Of a stretch of DNA of 46,194 nucleotides, positions 2,695 to 43,847 are shown one piece after another. The notes beneath the pieces are model-generated. The model was not told the origin of the DNA, ran no database searches, and saw nothing but the letters and a program-made list of their open reading frames with translations. Position numbers and translations under genes: made by a program. Origin of the DNA: a virus. Positions within the stretch are counted from its first letter, which is position 1, and every line of letters starts with the position of its first letter. The stretch spans positions 1 to 46,194 of the IMG/VR virus record IMGVR_UViG_3300010392_000276. One strand, 5' to 3'.

Positions 2695-3185
2695 GCATTC
2701 CCAGCAAACCTCAATGGAAAGAAGGACTTTCCGAAGTTGATGTTGAGATCAACTGCGATGGTCAGAAACTTCAGGCGCAAGGCATCACCCATGAAAACAC
2801 TCCTGGGCTAGCAGTCACCATGCATCCCTTCGGACTTTTCACGGTGACTCACATAAACACAGGGCTTCGGATGTGCAACACCTACGAACGATCCGCTAGT
2901 GCCCTACTGGCCATGAGTCAGTTCAGCCTGATTGCGAAGATGCAGGGCAAGTCGTGGGTAGACCTTGATAAAGACGGTGGGTTCGATCTGATGCAGGAAG
3001 CCGCGGAGAACGAAGTGCCCTTTGATGGAAACAGCCACACCTCTATCGAAGGCACTCGGAAGATGACAGTGAAAGAGTGGTTTCAGGTTATTCGGATGCC
3101 AATGTGGGATGAATTCCCCTGGGAAGATCGGGATCCGTTTGATGAGGCGCTGGAGAACTTCAAAAAGCTTGGGGGTGCGGCATGA
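2691..3185 (+). CDS. Hypothetical protein, 164 aa
   Basis: Mixed alpha/beta protein with a beta-rich N-terminal half, a helical middle (SASALLAMSQFSLIAK) and an acidic C-terminus rich in Trp, Glu and Asp. No catalytic motif seen. ATGA overlaps at both ends place it firmly in the operon. Confidence 0.6.
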   Translation: MSIPSKPQWKEGLSEVDVEINCDGQKLQAQGITHENTPGLAVTMHPFGLFTVTHINTGLRMCNTYERSASALLAMSQFSLIAKMQGKSWVDLDKDGGFDLMQEAAENEVPFDGNSHTSIEGTRKMTVKEWFQVIRMPMWDEFPWEDRDPFDEALENFKKLGGAA

Positions 3186-3970
3186 GCATGCGGGAAGATT
3201 TTGAATCAAAGATGGCAGGCGAGGCCATGCTGGATTGGGATGACGGCATGCAGGAATACCGTTCAGTCGTCACTCAGAAGATGTGGGTTACATGGCAAGC
3301 GGCCCGCGCCACGGATTCAGGGAGTCAGGTGGTGCCGGAGTGGATGGCTGAAATTTCTCAGAACCTGAAAACTCAGGATAACCGGATAACCGCTGATCCT
3401 CTGTTTGTTGTTTTCCAGAAACGGGAAATTGTCACCCATGAGGATTTCGACTACGACAGAATTTCTTGGGGAAGCTCAGATGGCGAGGCACCAGAGGAAA
3501 TTCAAGAGCAGTTGAATGAGCTTTATGGCGATGTAGAAAGCGACTTTTTCCGAGAAGATCAAATCACCCACACTTCCGAGGATGGCACGGAGACCTGGCA
3601 GCGGGCGGCACTCAAAGAAATTGATGAGTTCGTTACCGCTTGTTTCACCGAGGCCGGCGCAGAAGCCTATCTGAAAAGCAACGGGCACAACCTTCGACAA
3701 CCGTTTATCTATGTGACCTCGCTATTCCGCAACGAAGAAATGAAAAACCTGCGCGAATGGCTATCCACCAGCCCCGGCAATGGGTGGGTTAGGTGTGAGG
3801 ATGAATGGCCTCACACAGAGGAAGTTATCTGGGTTGACGACAACAGCTATCCCAAGCCCACGCTGCTCGATGTTGGTTTTTTACAGATGGCAATTGATCT
3901 GGGGCGGGTCCGACACTGGATGCCAACCGGCCTCAAGCGCCCACAGCCCCCAACCGGAGAATCAAAATGA
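3182..3970 (+). CDS. DUF551-like phage protein, 262 aa
   Basis: Largest unknown in the operon. The C-terminal 60 residues (WVRCEDEWP, then EVIWVD, GRVRHWMPTG) follow the Trp...Pro...HWMP layout of DUF551, a small domain common at the C-terminus of phage early proteins of unknown function. The remaining 200 residues are acidic and not recognised. ATGA overlaps on both sides. The DUF551 call is by pattern only. Confidence 0.6.
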   Translation: MSMREDFESKMAGEAMLDWDDGMQEYRSVVTQKMWVTWQAARATDSGSQVVPEWMAEISQNLKTQDNRITADPLFVVFQKREIVTHEDFDYDRISWGSSDGEAPEEIQEQLNELYGDVESDFFREDQITHTSEDGTETWQRAALKEIDEFVTACFTEAGAEAYLKSNGHNLRQPFIYVTSLFRNEEMKNLREWLSTSPGNGWVRCEDEWPHTEEVIWVDDNSYPKPTLLDVGFLQMAIDLGRVRHWMPTGLKRPQPPTGESK

Positions 3971-4164
3971 ACACAGTAACCAGAACTCGTTTCAATCATC
4001 GCTGCGTCAGCCACACACGTTTCGGCGGGGTGACACGGATCAAAGGCCCAATCTGCGGTGATCTGTTCATCCCGGCCAAAGGGGTCAGGGTGCTGAACTA
4101 TGAGCGGAGTATTGAAGCGCCGAAGCCGGAGCGGTTGGCGGGGAATGGAGGGACGCCAGAATGA
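3967..4164 (+). CDS. Small basic hypothetical protein, 65 aa
   Basis: Very basic protein, with two Cys and several Arg/His in the first half. ATG overlaps the previous stop; the stop overlaps the next ATG. Could be a small nucleic-acid binding protein; no family recognised. Confidence 0.55.
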   Translation: MNTVTRTRFNHRCVSHTRFGGVTRIKGPICGDLFIPAKGVRVLNYERSIEAPKPERLAGNGGTPE

Positions 4165-39142: not shown

Positions 39143-39384
39143 TCGATCACCCTCCACAAGCACCCCATACAATCGCGGTCTGCTTTGCCCTCTTCGCTCT
39201 GAGCGTACTGACACGCTCCTGAAGCCGCTTCATTCCAAGCCGTCCTCACAATACTGAAACGCTTTGAGCCGTCCTCCTTGAAGCCGTCAGGCACGATGTA
39301 GGGCGAACTCAGTGCAGAGCGGGATCGGTTGAAGCAGGCTGGCTTACGTTGTCCTACTGGATTGTCGGACAATCTGATTGTCAT
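39139..39384 (-). CDS. Small cysteine-containing hypothetical protein, 81 aa
   Basis: Starts at the ATG in the ATGA overlap with the DpdA-like gene. N-terminal TIRLSDNPVGQRKPACFN, C-terminal GACQYAQSEEGKADRDCMGCLWRVIE; the four cysteines could bind metal. The direct coupling to the DpdA-like gene makes it a possible partner. Not recognised. Confidence 0.6.
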   Translation of the reverse strand: MTIRLSDNPVGQRKPACFNRSRSALSSPYIVPDGFKEDGSKRFSIVRTAWNEAASGACQYAQSEEGKADRDCMGCLWRVIE

Positions 39385-40112
39385 ATTAAAGCCTCCTGAA
39401 TCGGTGCGCGGCTCCACTGCTCTGCGCTGTTGTGTGATTCGATTCGAGCGGCCATTAACTCAGCTCTCCATTCTTTGCTTGGCGGCTGATAAGTTCCTCT
39501 CCAGGCTGAATCAATACCAATGTTGCGCCCGACGTTCGTGCTGTCTGCGCTGGCAAACGGCAACTTGGTGAACACAGCAGGGTCCAACATCCGGAGGCCA
39601 TGCAATCGAGTAACGGGGCGGCCATGCTCATCACAGATGGCATTAAGCGCTTCACTGATTCGCGCCCACCAGCGAGCATTGCCAATCTGCGAGAATGCTC
39701 CAGAGCTGCCAATGCAGACACGCGGCCAGAAGTGAGCCAAGTCGAACAAGCGCTCAATGGATTCGTGCATGTGCCAAACTGGCGCGGAGTAGTGCTTTTC
39801 GTGTGGCCATTCGCGGATCAGGTCATCGTTGGCAACTTCGTCACCGTCGATAACGTCCGGAATGACAGCAAAGTCAAAGCCGGGATGTGACTTCAGGCCG
39901 TCTACCCATTGATAGAATGGCGTCCAGTCGGTGATTGCCTCGCCGGACTTCCAGGCAGTGAAGGCGCCGTTATCCACCGCGAAGCTCTGGCAAAGCTCGG
40001 CGGCAATCTCCAATTGGTCCGAGTGCATGAAGGACACAAAGGCATGGCGGCCCTGTAGCAACTTTGCGGCGGCTGTGGCTGGAGTAACTGGCAATCCGTG
40101 GTAATGAATCAT
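39381..40112 (-). CDS. DpdA/queuine-tRNA-ribosyltransferase-like protein, 243 aa
   Basis: Matches the phage branch of TGT-like proteins (RefSeq-style name DUF7221, DpdA-related): VDNGAFTAWKSG (Asp47), IPDVIDGDE (84-92), VWHMHESIE, VCIGSSGAFSQIG, LHGLRML (170-176) and SADSTNVGRNIGID (188-201). DpdA enzymes exchange guanine in DNA for a 7-deazaguanine. No preQ0-synthesis genes are present here, so the base would come from the host. Substrate (DNA rather than tRNA) is inferred from the family. Confidence 0.75.
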   Translation of the reverse strand: MIHYHGLPVTPATAAAKLLQGRHAFVSFMHSDQLEIAAELCQSFAVDNGAFTAWKSGEAITDWTPFYQWVDGLKSHPGFDFAVIPDVIDGDEVANDDLIREWPHEKHYSAPVWHMHESIERLFDLAHFWPRVCIGSSGAFSQIGNARWWARISEALNAICDEHGRPVTRLHGLRMLDPAVFTKLPFASADSTNVGRNIGIDSAWRGTYQPPSKEWRAELMAARIESHNSAEQWSRAPIQEALI

Positions 40113-40354
40113 TGCCAGCCCCTCCGAGTCTCAATATCGACGCCGTGGTGATGAGCGCTGATCGTTTGCTGCCCTCCAAAGCGCTGATAAGACTGGTCTG
40201 CAATGTCCTCTTGGTAGGCAGCTGTGAAGCTCAGGAAGAATCCCGCGATGTTCTCAACCATGATGGTCTGCGCGGAGCGGATCTCGACTCGGTACGCAAT
40301 GCGCTGTTGGTTGTTCGGACATTCGCACTCAAACTTAAAGCAGTAAATATTCAT
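40109..40354 (-). CDS. Hypothetical protein, 81 aa
   Basis: N-terminal YCFKFECECPNNQQRIAYRVEI then a helical segment; ends with HHHGVDIETRRGWQ. Lies directly upstream of, and ATGA-coupled to, the DpdA-like gene. Unknown; may assist DNA modification. Confidence 0.6.
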   Translation of the reverse strand: MNIYCFKFECECPNNQQRIAYRVEIRSAQTIMVENIAGFFLSFTAAYQEDIADQSYQRFGGQQTISAHHHGVDIETRRGWQ

Positions 40355-40539
40355 CGCTCACCTCCACACACAAAAGGCACATCAGTCCGAAGTTCAGGCC
40401 GATACCATGTCTCACGCACCCTCGGCTCATGCTCTTTCGGCACAAGCTCAAGCTCTCTGGTGCAGCGCTCCATGAAGAACTCGCCACAGTGAATGCCGTT
40501 GTGTAGTGGAATGCCTCGCTGGCAGTAGGTGCAGGTCAT
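40351..40539 (-). CDS. Small CxxC protein, 62 aa
   Basis: MTCTYCQRG plus HCGEFF and ERC give a possible four-Cys/His metal site. Its ATG overlaps the TGA of the frame that overprints dcm (ATGA), not the dcm stop eight bases upstream. That coupling supports the overprinted frame as the translated one at this junction. Confidence 0.65.
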   Translation of the reverse strand: MTCTYCQRGIPLHNGIHCGEFFMERCTRELELVPKEHEPRVRETWYRPELRTDVPFVCGGER

Positions 40540-41327
40540 GCGGCGTTACTCCCTTCCCGAAAGTTCGGTGAATGCTGCTGCAGCCACAACCGCATCTTGT
40601 CCGTTTCCAATGGCTCTAAGTCGGTCCACCCCAAAGGCCTGTTCATGAGAAATTCGGCATAACTTGGGTTTACCGCCAGGCCAGGTGTCTCTTCTCCGCC
40701 TTCTTGCAAATGCCTCCAGGCAAGATAATCCGCCAGATTTGACCTGTGCTCTCCAGTTCTCGCCCGTGCCCAAGCTACTCCGTGGCTGCCCATGCTCGCC
40801 GTTGGCGTTGGCACAGATCCATACCCTGAATCTTTCGTGATCACCGCCGAGGTCTCGCGAGCCCAGCACTCCCCATTTCGCATCAAACCCCAGCGCGGCC
40901 AAGTCTCCGAGTACAACTCCCAATCCCCGAGAAGTGAGAACTGGGGAGTTCTCCACGTAGACGTCTCCGGGTCGAACTTCGCCAATGATTCGAGTGAACT
41001 GAGACCAAAGGCCGGATCTTGCTCCGCTAATACCGGCACCTGGTCCGCATTTGGATATGTCCTGACAGGGAAACCCTCCAGAAATAACGTCAACACGGCC
41101 TCGCCATGCTGTTCCGTCAAAAGTCGTAACGTCGGACCAAATTGGGAAAGTCGGGAGGCATCCATCATTTTGTCGTTGCGCCAGAACCCCTGCGGAGTAG
41201 GCATCACGCTCCACTGCGCAGATGGTTCGCCATCCGAGTAGGTGGCCTCCGAGAATGCCTCCACCGGCTCCGGCGAAGAGTGCAAGTTCACGGAGTCCAT
41301 GAGCGCTTTGCTGAATAGCCATGTCAT
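40536..41327 (-). CDS. Overprinted protein sharing the whole dcm locus, 263 aa
   Basis: Reads in the +1 frame relative to dcm and spans it completely. ATG at 41327 lies four bases after GGAGG. Features: MTWLFSKALMDS start, FDPETSTWRTPQFSLLGDWELYSETWPRWGLMRNGECW in pieces, SVPTPTASMG, and the end NPSYAEFLMNRPLGWTDLEPLETDKMRLWLQQH in pieces. I recognise this as a widespread phage family often annotated as methyltransferase-associated. ATGA overlaps join it to a 33-aa gene upstream and a CxxC gene downstream. Function unknown. Confidence 0.8.
   Translation of the reverse strand: MTWLFSKALMDSVNLHSSPEPVEAFSEATYSDGEPSAQWSVMPTPQGFWRNDKMMDASRLSQFGPTLRLLTEQHGEAVLTLFLEGFPVRTYPNADQVPVLAEQDPAFGLSSLESLAKFDPETSTWRTPQFSLLGDWELYSETWPRWGLMRNGECWARETSAVITKDSGYGSVPTPTASMGSHGVAWARARTGEHRSNLADYLAWRHLQEGGEETPGLAVNPSYAEFLMNRPLGWTDLEPLETDKMRLWLQQHSPNFREGSNAA
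40546..41322 (-). CDS. dcm: C5 cytosine DNA methyltransferase, 258 aa
   Basis: Motif I LFAGAGGG (15-22), motif II around AVERD (36-40), catalytic motif IV GGFPCQDIS with Cys86, motif VI ENSPV (Glu124), motif VIII HERFRVWI and motif IX/X AIGNGQDAVVAAAAF are all present. The target-recognition part between VIII and IX is short. Methylates cytosine, likely to protect phage DNA from host restriction. The ATG at 41322 lies nine bases after the same GGAGG that serves the overprinted frame, so both proteins can be made from one ribosome-binding site. Confidence 0.92.
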   Translation of the reverse strand: MAIQQSAHGLRELALFAGAGGGILGGHLLGWRTICAVERDAYSAGVLAQRQNDGCLPTFPIWSDVTTFDGTAWRGRVDVISGGFPCQDISKCGPGAGISGARSGLWSQFTRIIGEVRPGDVYVENSPVLTSRGLGVVLGDLAALGFDAKWGVLGSRDLGGDHERFRVWICANANGEHGQPRSSLGTGENWRAQVKSGGLSCLEAFARRRRRDTWPGGKPKLCRISHEQAFGVDRLRAIGNGQDAVVAAAAFTELSGRE

Positions 41328-41425
41328 GCCGCCTCCTTGCGGATCTCGCCTGCCGTCATGGGACCGGCCTGGTACATGGCGCGGAGGACTTTGCCGAGTT
41401 TGGTGTGTTGGCCTGGGGTTCTCAT
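41324..41425 (-). CDS. Mini-protein, 33 aa
   Basis: Short frame MRTPGQHTKLGKVLRAMYQ...GPMTAGEIRKEAA between the HTH protein gene and the dcm locus, with ATGA overlaps at both ends and GGGAGGTTGCC as ribosome site. It looks like the first two helices of a winged HTH (a lone 'M-T-A-G-E-I' helix), perhaps a remnant of a DNA-binding protein. Its translation would deliver ribosomes to the dual-start dcm locus. Confidence 0.6.
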   Translation of the reverse strand: MRTPGQHTKLGKVLRAMYQAGPMTAGEIRKEAA

Positions 41426-41739
41426 GCGGCAACCTCCCTTTCACCCATGCGCTCCAGTTGTTGCAGAACGGTGTGATGGGAAAAGCCGTGCTGTTTGCAC
41501 AGGCGGTTCAGGCCAAGCTCTGAGGCTTTCAATTTCAGCCGGTCGCGCTCGGCAATGCAGGCCAGTATCAGGCGGCGCTCATCCTCAGGCACATTGCAGG
41601 GCATCCCGTTCGCCACCTTGGCGATAGTCTTTTCACCGCGTGCAAACTTGTTGGCCAGACTGCGATTTGAAAGCTCAATGATCTGACTGCGCAGCTTCCG
41701 GCCTTTCAGGTACAGAGTGCAGATTTCATGCAGGCTCAT
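41422..41739 (-). CDS. HTH DNA-binding protein, 105 aa
   Basis: Starts at the ATG overlapping the dnaC stop (ATGA). Helical protein with a C-terminal HTH (LNRLCKQHGFSHHTVLQQLERMG) and an internal SNRSLANKFARGEKTIAKVANG that also reads as HTH. Possibly a transcription regulator of the early operon. ATGA joins it to the 33-aa gene. Confidence 0.65.
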   Translation of the reverse strand: MSLHEICTLYLKGRKLRSQIIELSNRSLANKFARGEKTIAKVANGMPCNVPEDERRLILACIAERDRLKLKASELGLNRLCKQHGFSHHTVLQQLERMGEREVAA

Positions 41740-42569
41740 GACGCACCCCCAACCCGGTAGGATTTCCAATCAAAGTCCAGGGCGCGGCCACCACCCTCGC
41801 GGAGACGGTCAACGACTCGCTCACCGACGCACAGAGGCAGATCCTTGGCTTGCAGGTTGGTAATCAGGACGGTGGGGCGCTCGGCCAGGTAGCGGGCGTT
41901 AATGGCTTCATACGCCACGGCTTGCTCGAACTCCGTGAAGTTCTGCATACCGACTTCATCAAGAACGGCCAACCGGCCCTTGGCGAAATCCTTGTACGCA
42001 TCTTCTTCGGAATGCTCCGCGCCTTTGGAAAACGACGCTTTCACGTACCGGACAAGCTCAGAGAAGGTCCAGTAGTACGATGGCTGGCGAGTCTCCCGGA
42101 TAACGCTTTCGATCAGAGCGCAAGCCAGATGAGTTTTCCCGTTTCCAACCTTGCCAAGCATAAGCAGGCAGCGACCGCCGTGGTCGTCCTTTGAGATCAG
42201 ATCCGCGTATTCCCGAACCTTGGCAAGATGGCTGGCTGCTTTTTGGTTTACTGCCTCAAAGTTATCGAAAGACTTTTTCCGAAAGCGGGAAGGTATGCCA
42301 GAATCAGCAACCATTGAATTGATCCGCCGCACCTCACGCTCTGCGTTTTCTTTGATGACCTGCTGCCTGGCTTCTTCATCCCACTGCAACTTCTTGCAAG
42401 TCGGGCAACCAGCCCACCCAGGCGTAACAATGTTTCCTTCGCCGGAGTAATGCTTATCTTCGAACTCTCCATGAATCTCACATTCGCCTTTGCGCTTGTC
42501 GGTAAGCCCGTTCTTCCGGTTTAGGCGATCTTCCAGGCTCTCAATCTGCTCAGAAATTGGCTGCGTCAT
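41736..42569 (-). CDS. dnaC: DnaC-type helicase loader ATPase, 277 aa
   Basis: N-terminal zinc-like cluster (C30-x2-H33...C55-x2-C58), Walker A GKVGNGKT (139-146), Walker B LAVLDEVG (200-207), and NARYLAERPTVLITNL sensor region, all as in DnaC/IstB-type loaders. It would load the host DnaB helicase at the phage origin, like lambda P. ATG at 42569 has GAGGGGGTGTCCG upstream. Follows the O-like initiator. Confidence 0.9.
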   Translation of the reverse strand: MTQPISEQIESLEDRLNRKNGLTDKRKGECEIHGEFEDKHYSGEGNIVTPGWAGCPTCKKLQWDEEARQQVIKENAEREVRRINSMVADSGIPSRFRKKSFDNFEAVNQKAASHLAKVREYADLISKDDHGGRCLLMLGKVGNGKTHLACALIESVIRETRQPSYYWTFSELVRYVKASFSKGAEHSEEDAYKDFAKGRLAVLDEVGMQNFTEFEQAVAYEAINARYLAERPTVLITNLQAKDLPLCVGERVVDRLREGGGRALDFDWKSYRVGGAS

Positions 42570-43371
42570 CGGACACCCCCTCAATCAATCCTTCGCTGTA
42601 GTCGCGCTCATCGAAGCCGTTGTGCCGGCTATGCATCGGGTGGATCTCAGCGGTCGGCTTCTGATTGCTCATCCAGTTGTTCAAGAATCGCGTCATGCCC
42701 CGGTTGGTTTTCTGCCTGGCTGGGTTTGCGATTAGCCAAAGGCGGGCTTTCTGTAGCTGGTATTCAACGTCAATCCGTGGATAGGTCGATTTCAGCTCGG
42801 TGACAAAAGATTCCTGTAGCTGGAAGGGCTTTTCGTCCTTGGTGGGGAAATCTCTGACGCCTGCCGGTGATTCAGATTCGGCTGGCGAGGCATCCGAAGA
42901 TGCGGAGCCTTGTTGTTTTTCAGGATTCAGGAATCCGGAATCAGGATTCAGGAATCCGGAATCAGCACGGCTATACTCAGGCTGGCCCTGGGCTTGTCCG
43001 GGGCTTTCCGAGGCTTCTTTCTTTTCAGGGGGTTGCGGGCCTTTTTCTGGCGGGCCAGGCAGTTCACTCGCCGGTTCGCGGTGATGCGGATTCTGATGTT
43101 TTTTAAAGTTGACCACTTCAATGCAGTCTTTGTTCTCGTTGCGGTAAACCGTTACGAGGCCAGCCTCGGAAAGCCTCGTAATTTCAAGGCTTACATCAAC
43201 GTCGTCAGCCGGAAAAATTTCCAACTTGATCTTCTTTGGCCTGTTTTCGAGCCGACCTTCTCGATCCGCCATATTCCAAAGGCCGATAAATAGAAGCCTC
43301 GCCTGAAACGGAAGCTCAACCAGCGCCTCATTGCGCCAAAAACCGGGCTTGATATTTCTTGCTCTAGCCAT
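42550..43371 (-). CDS. Replication initiator (O-like), 273 aa
   Basis: N-terminal winged helix of phage replisome organisers: RNIKPGFWRNEALVELPFQARLLFIGLWNMADREGRLEN in pieces, KKIKLEIFPADD, then FKKHQNPHHREP. The middle (100-175) is Pro/Glu/Ser-rich linker containing a duplicated SGFLNPD, whose DNA is the candidate origin. The C-terminal part (YQLQKARLWLIANPARQK and GMTRFLNNWMSNQ) would contact the loader. ATG at 43371 lies in a TGATG overlap with a GGAGG site. Confidence 0.88.
   Translation of the reverse strand: MARARNIKPGFWRNEALVELPFQARLLFIGLWNMADREGRLENRPKKIKLEIFPADDVDVSLEITRLSEAGLVTVYRNENKDCIEVVNFKKHQNPHHREPASELPGPPEKGPQPPEKKEASESPGQAQGQPEYSRADSGFLNPDSGFLNPEKQQGSASSDASPAESESPAGVRDFPTKDEKPFQLQESFVTELKSTYPRIDVEYQLQKARLWLIANPARQKTNRGMTRFLNNWMSNQKPTAEIHPMHSRHNGFDERDYSEGLIEGVSDDAANF
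42921..42965 (-). repeat. Tandem 21-bp palindromic repeats inside the O-like gene, candidate origin
   Basis: The 21-mer AGGATTCAGGAATCCGGAATC occurs twice back to back, plus a partial third start. Each contains the perfect inverted repeat GGATTC-AG-GAATCC (42923-42936 and 42944-42957). In lambda the origin is a set of iterons with internal symmetry inside O, bound by O itself; the place and form match. Only two copies are seen, so the origin role is inferred. Confidence 0.6.
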
Positions 43372-43847
43372 CACTGACCTCCAGATGCATCAATTTGAAA
43401 GAGTTTTGTGCGGCTATTTGTTCGCGCTTGACCCTGGGAAAAAACTGCAACTTGGTCAGGGTGATATAGTGATGCTTCGAACCATAAAGGGTTGTGGGGA
43501 TCGACTTGGCCGGGATTTAGCGCCTCAAGCGCCATATCAGAAATATATTCTGCAAGACCATCTTCGGTATTCTTCCGAATACTCCAGATGGCCATGCTCA
43601 GCGGGCATCGAAAAAACTCGCGCGCCGGGTTAATCCGGTACTCAACAAGATCTGCATGAACCATGCACTCAAGCTCACGAACCGCCGAGGTTTCCAGATA
43701 GTAAGCCGGCGAATAATCGTCAGCTACGCCAGCTCCTGCGGATAGCTCTTCCGCCCGCTTAAAAACTGACCTAGTTGTGAAGCCGATCTTATAAACGCCG
43801 TTCATGGCAAAGTTGTGCATCACATAGACAAAGCCGTAATCGCTCAT
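43371..43847 (-). CDS. GIY-YIG-like (T5orf172/Mug113) protein, 158 aa
   Basis: VYVMHN (7-12), VYKIGFTTRS (18-27), Arg31 and a Glu in ELECMVHADL (about 58) follow the T5orf172/Mug113 GIY-YIG arrangement. The C-terminal 60 residues are unrelated. Placed before the replication genes. Role unknown; a nuclease activity is possible. ATGA overlaps at the upstream end. Confidence 0.72.
   Translation of the reverse strand: MSDYGFVYVMHNFAMNGVYKIGFTTRSVFKRAEELSAGAGVADDYSPAYYLETSAVRELECMVHADLVEYRINPAREFFRCPLSMAIWSIRKNTEDGLAEYISDMALEALNPGQVDPHNPLWFEASLYHPDQVAVFSQGQARTNSRTKLFQIDASGGQ

Follow-up and report, generated by a model that had tools for sequence, protein, structure and literature searches.

A phage cytosine methyltransferase gene overprinted along its whole length by a second frame, the probable source of its motif IX subunit

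Two reading frames on one segment

The window analysed here is the complete 46,194-nt stretch of the IMG/VR virus record IMGVR_UViG_3300010392_000276. On its minus strand, a dcm gene for a C5 cytosine methyltransferase (alpha) lies wholly inside a second ORF one base over (beta, the +1 frame), whose open frame continues upstream of its ATG. The features considered below are as follows.

40546-41322, minus strand: alpha, the dcm frame, an ORF of 258 aa with motifs I-VIII at alpha 12-172 and a putative motif X at about 231-251, and without motif IX (PF00145, phrog_363, AlphaFold2, Foldseek)
40536-41327, minus strand: beta, the +1 frame, an ORF of 263 aa from the ATG at 41327 to the stop at 40536, with a conserved core SWKTxQxSLLGDLxxFSETWPxWGxMRNGE and a C5 motif IX of the LNPxWxEWLMGWPxGWTDL type (PHROG and C-terminal profile)
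41332-41338, minus strand: shared Shine-Dalgarno sequence AAGGAGG, preceding the ATG codons of both alpha and beta (from the sequence)
41292-41327, minus strand: displaced N-terminus of beta, MTWLFSKALMDS, where the alpha frame reads MAIQQSAHGL in place of the usual NELALF
40660-40806, minus strand: variable region (alpha 173-221), a probable target-recognition segment, disordered in alpha (identity and fourfold divergence)
40572-40685, minus strand: motif IX segment of beta (beta 215-252), the same DNA encoding alpha motif X (HMM of these columns)
41324-41425, minus strand: upstream ORF of 33 aa, with ATGA joints to beta and to the ORF at 41422-41769
40351-40539, minus strand: downstream ORF of 62 aa, of CxxC type, with an ATGA joint to the beta stop

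The original prediction, made from the window alone, described whole-gene overprinting of dcm by a second conserved protein, and both the coordinates and the frames were verified. The single GGAGG that it assigned to two ATG codons is present, 4 nt from the ATG of beta and 9 nt from that of alpha, and the shared end is dual-coding as it proposed; 40572-40685 carries both the motif IX segment of beta and motif X of alpha. The ATGA coupling that it saw on both sides of the second frame is found with the 33-aa and 62-aa ORFs, while alpha is coupled in this way to neither. Because these couplings belong to beta, the coupled chain of genes passes through the +1 frame and not through dcm.

A family search with the 62-aa ORF gave no match. 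The neighbouring gene at 39381-40112 (minus strand) matches phrog_887 (queuine tRNA-ribosyltransferase, 4.6e-75), a group which we take to include phage DpdA-like DNA base-exchange enzymes; it may be another gene for DNA modification next to that of the methyltransferase. A protein of the T5orf172/MUG113 (GIY-YIG-like) type, without a PHROG function, is encoded at 43371-43847 (minus strand; PF10544, 1.9e-10).

Two start layouts were distinguished among 90 representatives of the family. The ATG of beta lies 4 nt after the alpha start in 67 of them, and 5 nt before it in 18, the window included. The start codon of beta is ATG in 86 of the 90, while that of alpha is GTG or TTG in 34. The Asn of NELALF in alpha is coded AAT in 69 of 69 sequences, and it is this codon that creates the ATG of beta. 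In the layout with the ATG before alpha, the beta start, M(S/T)WLFSxAL, has moved upstream of the DNA that encodes ELALFAGAG in alpha. In the window, beta retains MTWLFSKAL and alpha at this place is the unrelated MAIQQS; at 18 other loci, the E of ELALF is displaced downstream of the beta start, and most of these keep a beta start of the M(T/S/A)W(L)(F/I)S(K)A(L/M) type.

Co-occurrence and constraint of the two frames

Searches of phage records by tblastn, with either alpha or beta as the query, led to the same loci, with beta always in +1 relative to alpha. In a first set, the dcm frame was present in 175 of 175 loci, and the +1 frame was open over almost its full length in nearly all of them. 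When 80 viral loci (58 non-redundant) were picked by the dcm protein alone, the +1 frame was open nearly end to end with few exceptions, and the +2 and reverse frames generally were not; at loci selected by beta, the +1 frame was likewise open over almost the entire gene. Searching via beta brought new prophage and viral loci, and each of the 150 that could be scored had the +1 arrangement, with an overlap of at least 85%. A scan of bacterial genomes added loci in Pseudomonas, Acinetobacter, Pantoea, Halomonas, Nitrosomonas, Verrucomicrobiota and others. Among 280 non-redundant alpha loci, drawn from phages, prophages and plasmids, the overlap covers at least 85% of alpha at 261, and motif IX was scored in the +1 frame at 272. 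The early suggestion of an ancient and widespread overlap was right. A pattern of separate genes without overlap in the majority of relatives would have spoken against the original prediction; this pattern was sought and not found in the nested family, and the neighbouring actinophage clade does contain monomeric and short-overlap split forms.

The eight loci without a scored motif IX comprise three contig edges, a Nostoc plasmid member whose segment, LNPAFVRWLLGFPLE, falls slightly under the motif IX threshold, and the loci L095, L238, L259 and L262, in which the gene has been rearranged, interrupted or shifted. L095 (about 3001-4087) and L259 (about 3001-3970) come from unrelated contigs, and each has an indel in one and the same G-run, located after motif IV of alpha (ISAAGGGG), by which both frames are shifted; sequencing error, decay and recoding are candidate causes. 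At two further places, alpha is open and beta is not intact: L047 has an in-frame stop in the middle of beta, and L037/L121 (one contig) has a stop between motif IX and the remainder of beta. These are candidates for natural loss of beta or for sequence error. An intact beta without alpha was not found among the loci collected, both beta-only loci being defective: L267 is a chimaera, and L266 (about 2950-3200) is a bacterial remnant in which an internal deletion fuses the start and the end of the nested gene.

Relatives in E. coli are rare, as DNA similarity revealed them in 4 of 5,426 genomes (the chromosomes of PT62, LP5-1, PCP07014 and 23CRST032), where the annotation reads only 'DNA cytosine methyltransferase', with an ead/Ea22-like gene in addition in two. 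More generally, it is usually the dcm frame alone that is annotated in genome records, despite the presence of the nested pair in hundreds of phages and prophages.

An open second frame could in principle be a by-product of the amino-acid sequence of alpha and of base composition, with alpha alone being translated. Conserved alpha residues do partly fix the +1 frame, the stops expected are few (about 5 per gene), and some canonical methyltransferases also show long +1 runs. Nevertheless, full-length +1 frames are absent from canonical, monomeric and short-overlap split genes, and when the synonymous codons of dcm were shuffled, the +1 frame was never as open as observed (0 of 1000 shuffles; about 5.4 stops expected, 0 observed). 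A comparison of pairwise identity in the +1 frame with the codon-shuffle null was set aside, since identity exceeded expectation in +1 but also in +2; it was replaced by tests on silent sites.

These tests make use of the geometry of the overlap: each third position of an alpha codon coincides with a second position in beta, so that silent third-position changes in alpha replace residues of beta. In four bins of protein identity, the fourfold divergence of alpha was 0.292, 0.212, 0.112 and 0.080, whereas that of flanking genes in the same bins was 0.527, 0.475, 0.322 and 0.171. Silent-site divergence is thus 1.8-2.9 times lower in alpha than in neighbouring genes, and the ratio of position-3 to position-1 divergence is 1.1-1.65 in alpha as against 2.2-4.3 in the flanking genes. 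In a survey of wobble bases in 91 diverse members, single codons proved frozen: Ala142 of alpha (Pro144 of beta) is GCC in 80 of 80, Gly145 is GGG in 88 of 91, Arg223 is CGA in 44 of 44, and Ala229 (Pro231 of beta) is GCC in 78 of 79.

The variable region behaves differently in the two frames. Identity there is 0.449 in beta against 0.345 in alpha, although the alignment was built on alpha; the first codon position of alpha, which is the wobble position of beta, is the fastest (0.537), and fourfold divergence is at its lowest (0.143). The region is probably the target-recognition segment, read chiefly in the beta frame.

The second frame is therefore more open than chance allows and is subject to purifying selection, and a chance origin of the open +1 frame was rejected on the codon shuffle, the open-frame survey, the fourfold divergence and the frozen wobble bases. 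Translation of alpha alone is accordingly very improbable, given also the greater conservation of beta in the variable region and the retention of its N-terminal motif where the alpha frame has changed. Both frames are under selection, and in this respect the original prediction, which held both to be real, was correct.

An enzyme probably divided between the two frames

The same prediction held that dcm keeps every C5 motif, and this did not stand: motif IX is absent from the dcm frame, which also lacks an ordered small domain. Alpha matches PF00145 with E=1.2e-23, a match that covers only positions 4-166 of the 324 of the profile, and it matches phrog_363 with 1.3e-53. On the alpha protein of a Salmonella phage, the PF00145 match ends at profile position 181, while the monomeric phage enzyme of RitaG, taken as a control, matches positions 1-317 of 324. 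The AlphaFold2 model of alpha (pLDDT 75, pTM 0.73) has ordered parts at about 11-176 and 242-255, with disordered residues between them (177-241, pLDDT below 50). Foldseek aligned this model with M.HaeIII (3e-12) and M.HhaI (1e-11) over 168-178 columns, the enzymes themselves having 324-327 residues. Since the Pfam match stops early and the region of the small domain is disordered, alpha corresponds to the large domain minus the small domain. The catalytic PCQ and EN(V/S) of PF00145 enzymes have their counterparts in alpha, where FPC and EN do not vary among 67 sequences, but the full motif set with target-recognition domain and motif IX in one chain is not found there. The candidate for motif X is GNGQVPxVAA, almost invariant in alpha, which a profile relates only weakly to the motif X of further methyltransferases (PropB22, E=0.005).

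Beta matches phrog_1008 (9e-16) and phrog_26627 (1.4e-7), as do 79 and 78, respectively, of 81 beta proteins. Sequence searches of Pfam, NCBIfam and PDB with beta gave nothing useful, with no match to a Pfam family. Motif IX is short, and whole-profile hhalign of beta against canonical methyltransferases likewise gave no match; a profile of the C-terminal part was used instead. AlphaFold2 gave no confident fold for beta alone (pLDDT 59, pTM 0.24), which makes a Foldseek search of that model meaningless. In the conserved core, the string WPxWGxMRNGE partly shadows the alpha motif LxxLGFDAxW, so this part taken alone proves little; a similar string also occurs in the +1 frame of the monomeric RitaG and Lton. 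The N-terminal part of beta is cut back in L112, in L148 and in the basal nested members.

The profile of beta residues 215-252 was searched against 13,241 ORFs. Among split genes it matched beta of FoulBall (gene 5; 3.5e-8) and the C-terminal gene of Peaches (3e-4), and among monomers RitaG (6.5e-4), PropB22 (1e-3) and Philonius, the monomers spanning 6.5e-4 to 2e-3; no unrelated match fell below E 0.1 in this set. Outside the nested family, the matches fall at FxEWMMGxxxGW, directly before an in-frame motif X. Judged by these profile matches, the C-terminal segment of beta is C5 motif IX, a homology that rests on the actinophage bridge. Beta itself is without motif X.

It has to be asked whether beta, real as it is, might serve a separate function, such as regulation of the methyltransferase or counter-defence, its motif-IX-like end being coincidental or exapted. 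Its additional N-terminal half has no counterpart in known motif IX subunits, and the missing Pfam match points the same way. On the other hand, the motif IX that alpha lacks is present in beta, at the position which the gene order calls for; the same segment stands in frame with motif X in FoulBall and Peaches and with the whole enzyme in RitaG; and the only loci with beta and no alpha are the deletion remnant and the chimaera described above. We regard a separate function as unlikely; rather than an unrelated passenger, beta is most probably the other subunit of the enzyme that contains alpha.

A further possibility arises from the position of motif IX between VIII and X in the gene order, because a +1 shift followed by a shift back would rebuild a monomer. 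Programmed frameshifting of this kind would join both frames into one chain that gains motif IX, and the frame changes of L095 and L259 in the G-run could be taken in its support. Two opposite shifts within about 80 codons would be required, however, and beta possesses a conserved start, a stop and ATGA couplings that belong to it alone, while the conservation of its N-terminal half, which overlaps motifs I-VIII, would be left without a reason. We therefore consider frameshifting highly improbable.

The reading that we prefer is that of a two-polypeptide C5 methyltransferase resembling M.EcoHK31I, its two subunits being overprinted on a single segment, and we hold it to be very likely. One mRNA with one ribosome-binding site and two starts 4-5 nt apart would give rise to both proteins and, owing to this arrangement, the ratio of alpha to beta would stay near 1:1. 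Alpha would provide the catalytic, AdoMet-binding large domain with motifs I-VIII and the motif X helix, and beta would supply motif IX and the presumed target-recognition part of the small domain. Beta is presumed to be expressed and both proteins to be required; together they would form an active heterodimer methylating the DNA of the phage. We infer that specificity resides in beta and that the enzyme has a role in protecting phage DNA. The overall reading of the original prediction thus survives as regards overprinting, selection, shared start, dual end and a wide, ancient distribution; its complete dcm does not, and the role of the second protein as a partner had been missed.

Known systems, origin and significance

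In M.EcoHK31I (YGGCCR), the ORF for the small subunit of 176 aa lies inside that for the large subunit, in another frame, and the small-subunit frame of the phage pair is likewise placed inside the large-subunit gene in another frame. The large subunit of M.EcoHK31I carries motifs I-VIII and X, with motif IX in the separate small polypeptide (PMC3404938). In the phage pair, motifs I-VIII are similarly found in the first polypeptide and motif IX in the second. There are also differences. The target-recognition domain of M.EcoHK31I is predicted in the large subunit, whereas the variable region of the phage pair is constrained mainly in beta. Unlike the small subunit of M.EcoHK31I, phage beta, mostly 230-365 aa long, spans the whole alpha gene and shares its start region, and its N-terminal half is a further difference. 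The genes, moreover, belong to phages and prophages, and no neighbouring restriction partner was noticed for the copy in the window. The phage pair would work like M.EcoHK31I, from which it is set apart by the length of the overlap, the shared start region, the N-terminal half of beta and the variable region constrained mainly in beta.

M.AquI (CYCGRG) is another C5 methyltransferase naturally divided into alpha and beta polypeptides, its beta carrying motifs IX and X (PMC3404938). The family of the window differs in having no motif X in beta and a putative one in alpha, and it is the actinophages FoulBall, Peaches and Datway that have the M.AquI layout. The monomers M.HhaI and M.HaeIII (PF00145) share the fold of the large domain with alpha, but have the target-recognition domain, IX and X in one frame, while alpha is without the small domain. 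In PHROGs, alpha is family 363, and beta is spread over families 1008, 26627 and 35493; its C-terminus is held as separate families of unknown function, phrog_1008 being labelled merely 'DNA methyltransferase', and the entries do not reveal that alpha and beta share DNA. The internal frame of one basal member, gp63 of Paenibacillus phage Lily, was deposited as 'g62 internal gene', a short (about 163 aa) hypothetical protein without a function. A search of the available literature found no description of the nested alpha/beta family.

Candidate intermediates come from phages. The actinophages RitaG and Lton have monomers; Peaches and Datway have split genes with a 23-bp overlap and motifs IX and X in the second gene; and in FoulBall, the overlap of the split genes is 209 bp. 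A shorter beta inside alpha is found in the basal nested members Lily, S72, S-H1, Aubs, MoxR1 and Bacteroides phage BU730P1, and in the window type beta spans the entire alpha gene. In a tree built from motifs I-VIII and rooted by midpoint only, support is 93/79 for the grouping of the nested forms and 96/93 for a clade of those nested over their full length, and the actinophage monomers and splits are placed beside the nested forms, which is compatible with a single origin of nesting. Taken together, we think it likely that one segment encodes, along its entire length and in two frames, both subunits of a heterodimer (the large domain, and motif IX with target recognition), that this arrangement is old and widespread in dsDNA phages and prophages of many phyla and ranks among the most widely conserved long same-strand overlaps, and that it came about in steps, beginning with a split methyltransferase whose second frame then grew in the upstream direction.

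To our knowledge, long same-strand overlaps in prokaryotes are widely doubted, and few combine strong evolutionary support with a known function. Here, silent-site constraint over hundreds of loci is accompanied by a concrete proposed role for the hidden frame, that of the missing part of an enzyme. As records usually annotate dcm alone, many phage C5 methyltransferases are listed as complete single enzymes and probably need a second product, and expression of such methyltransferases from recoded genes would destroy the beta partner. The family also offers a testable path from a monomer, through a split gene, to a nested one.
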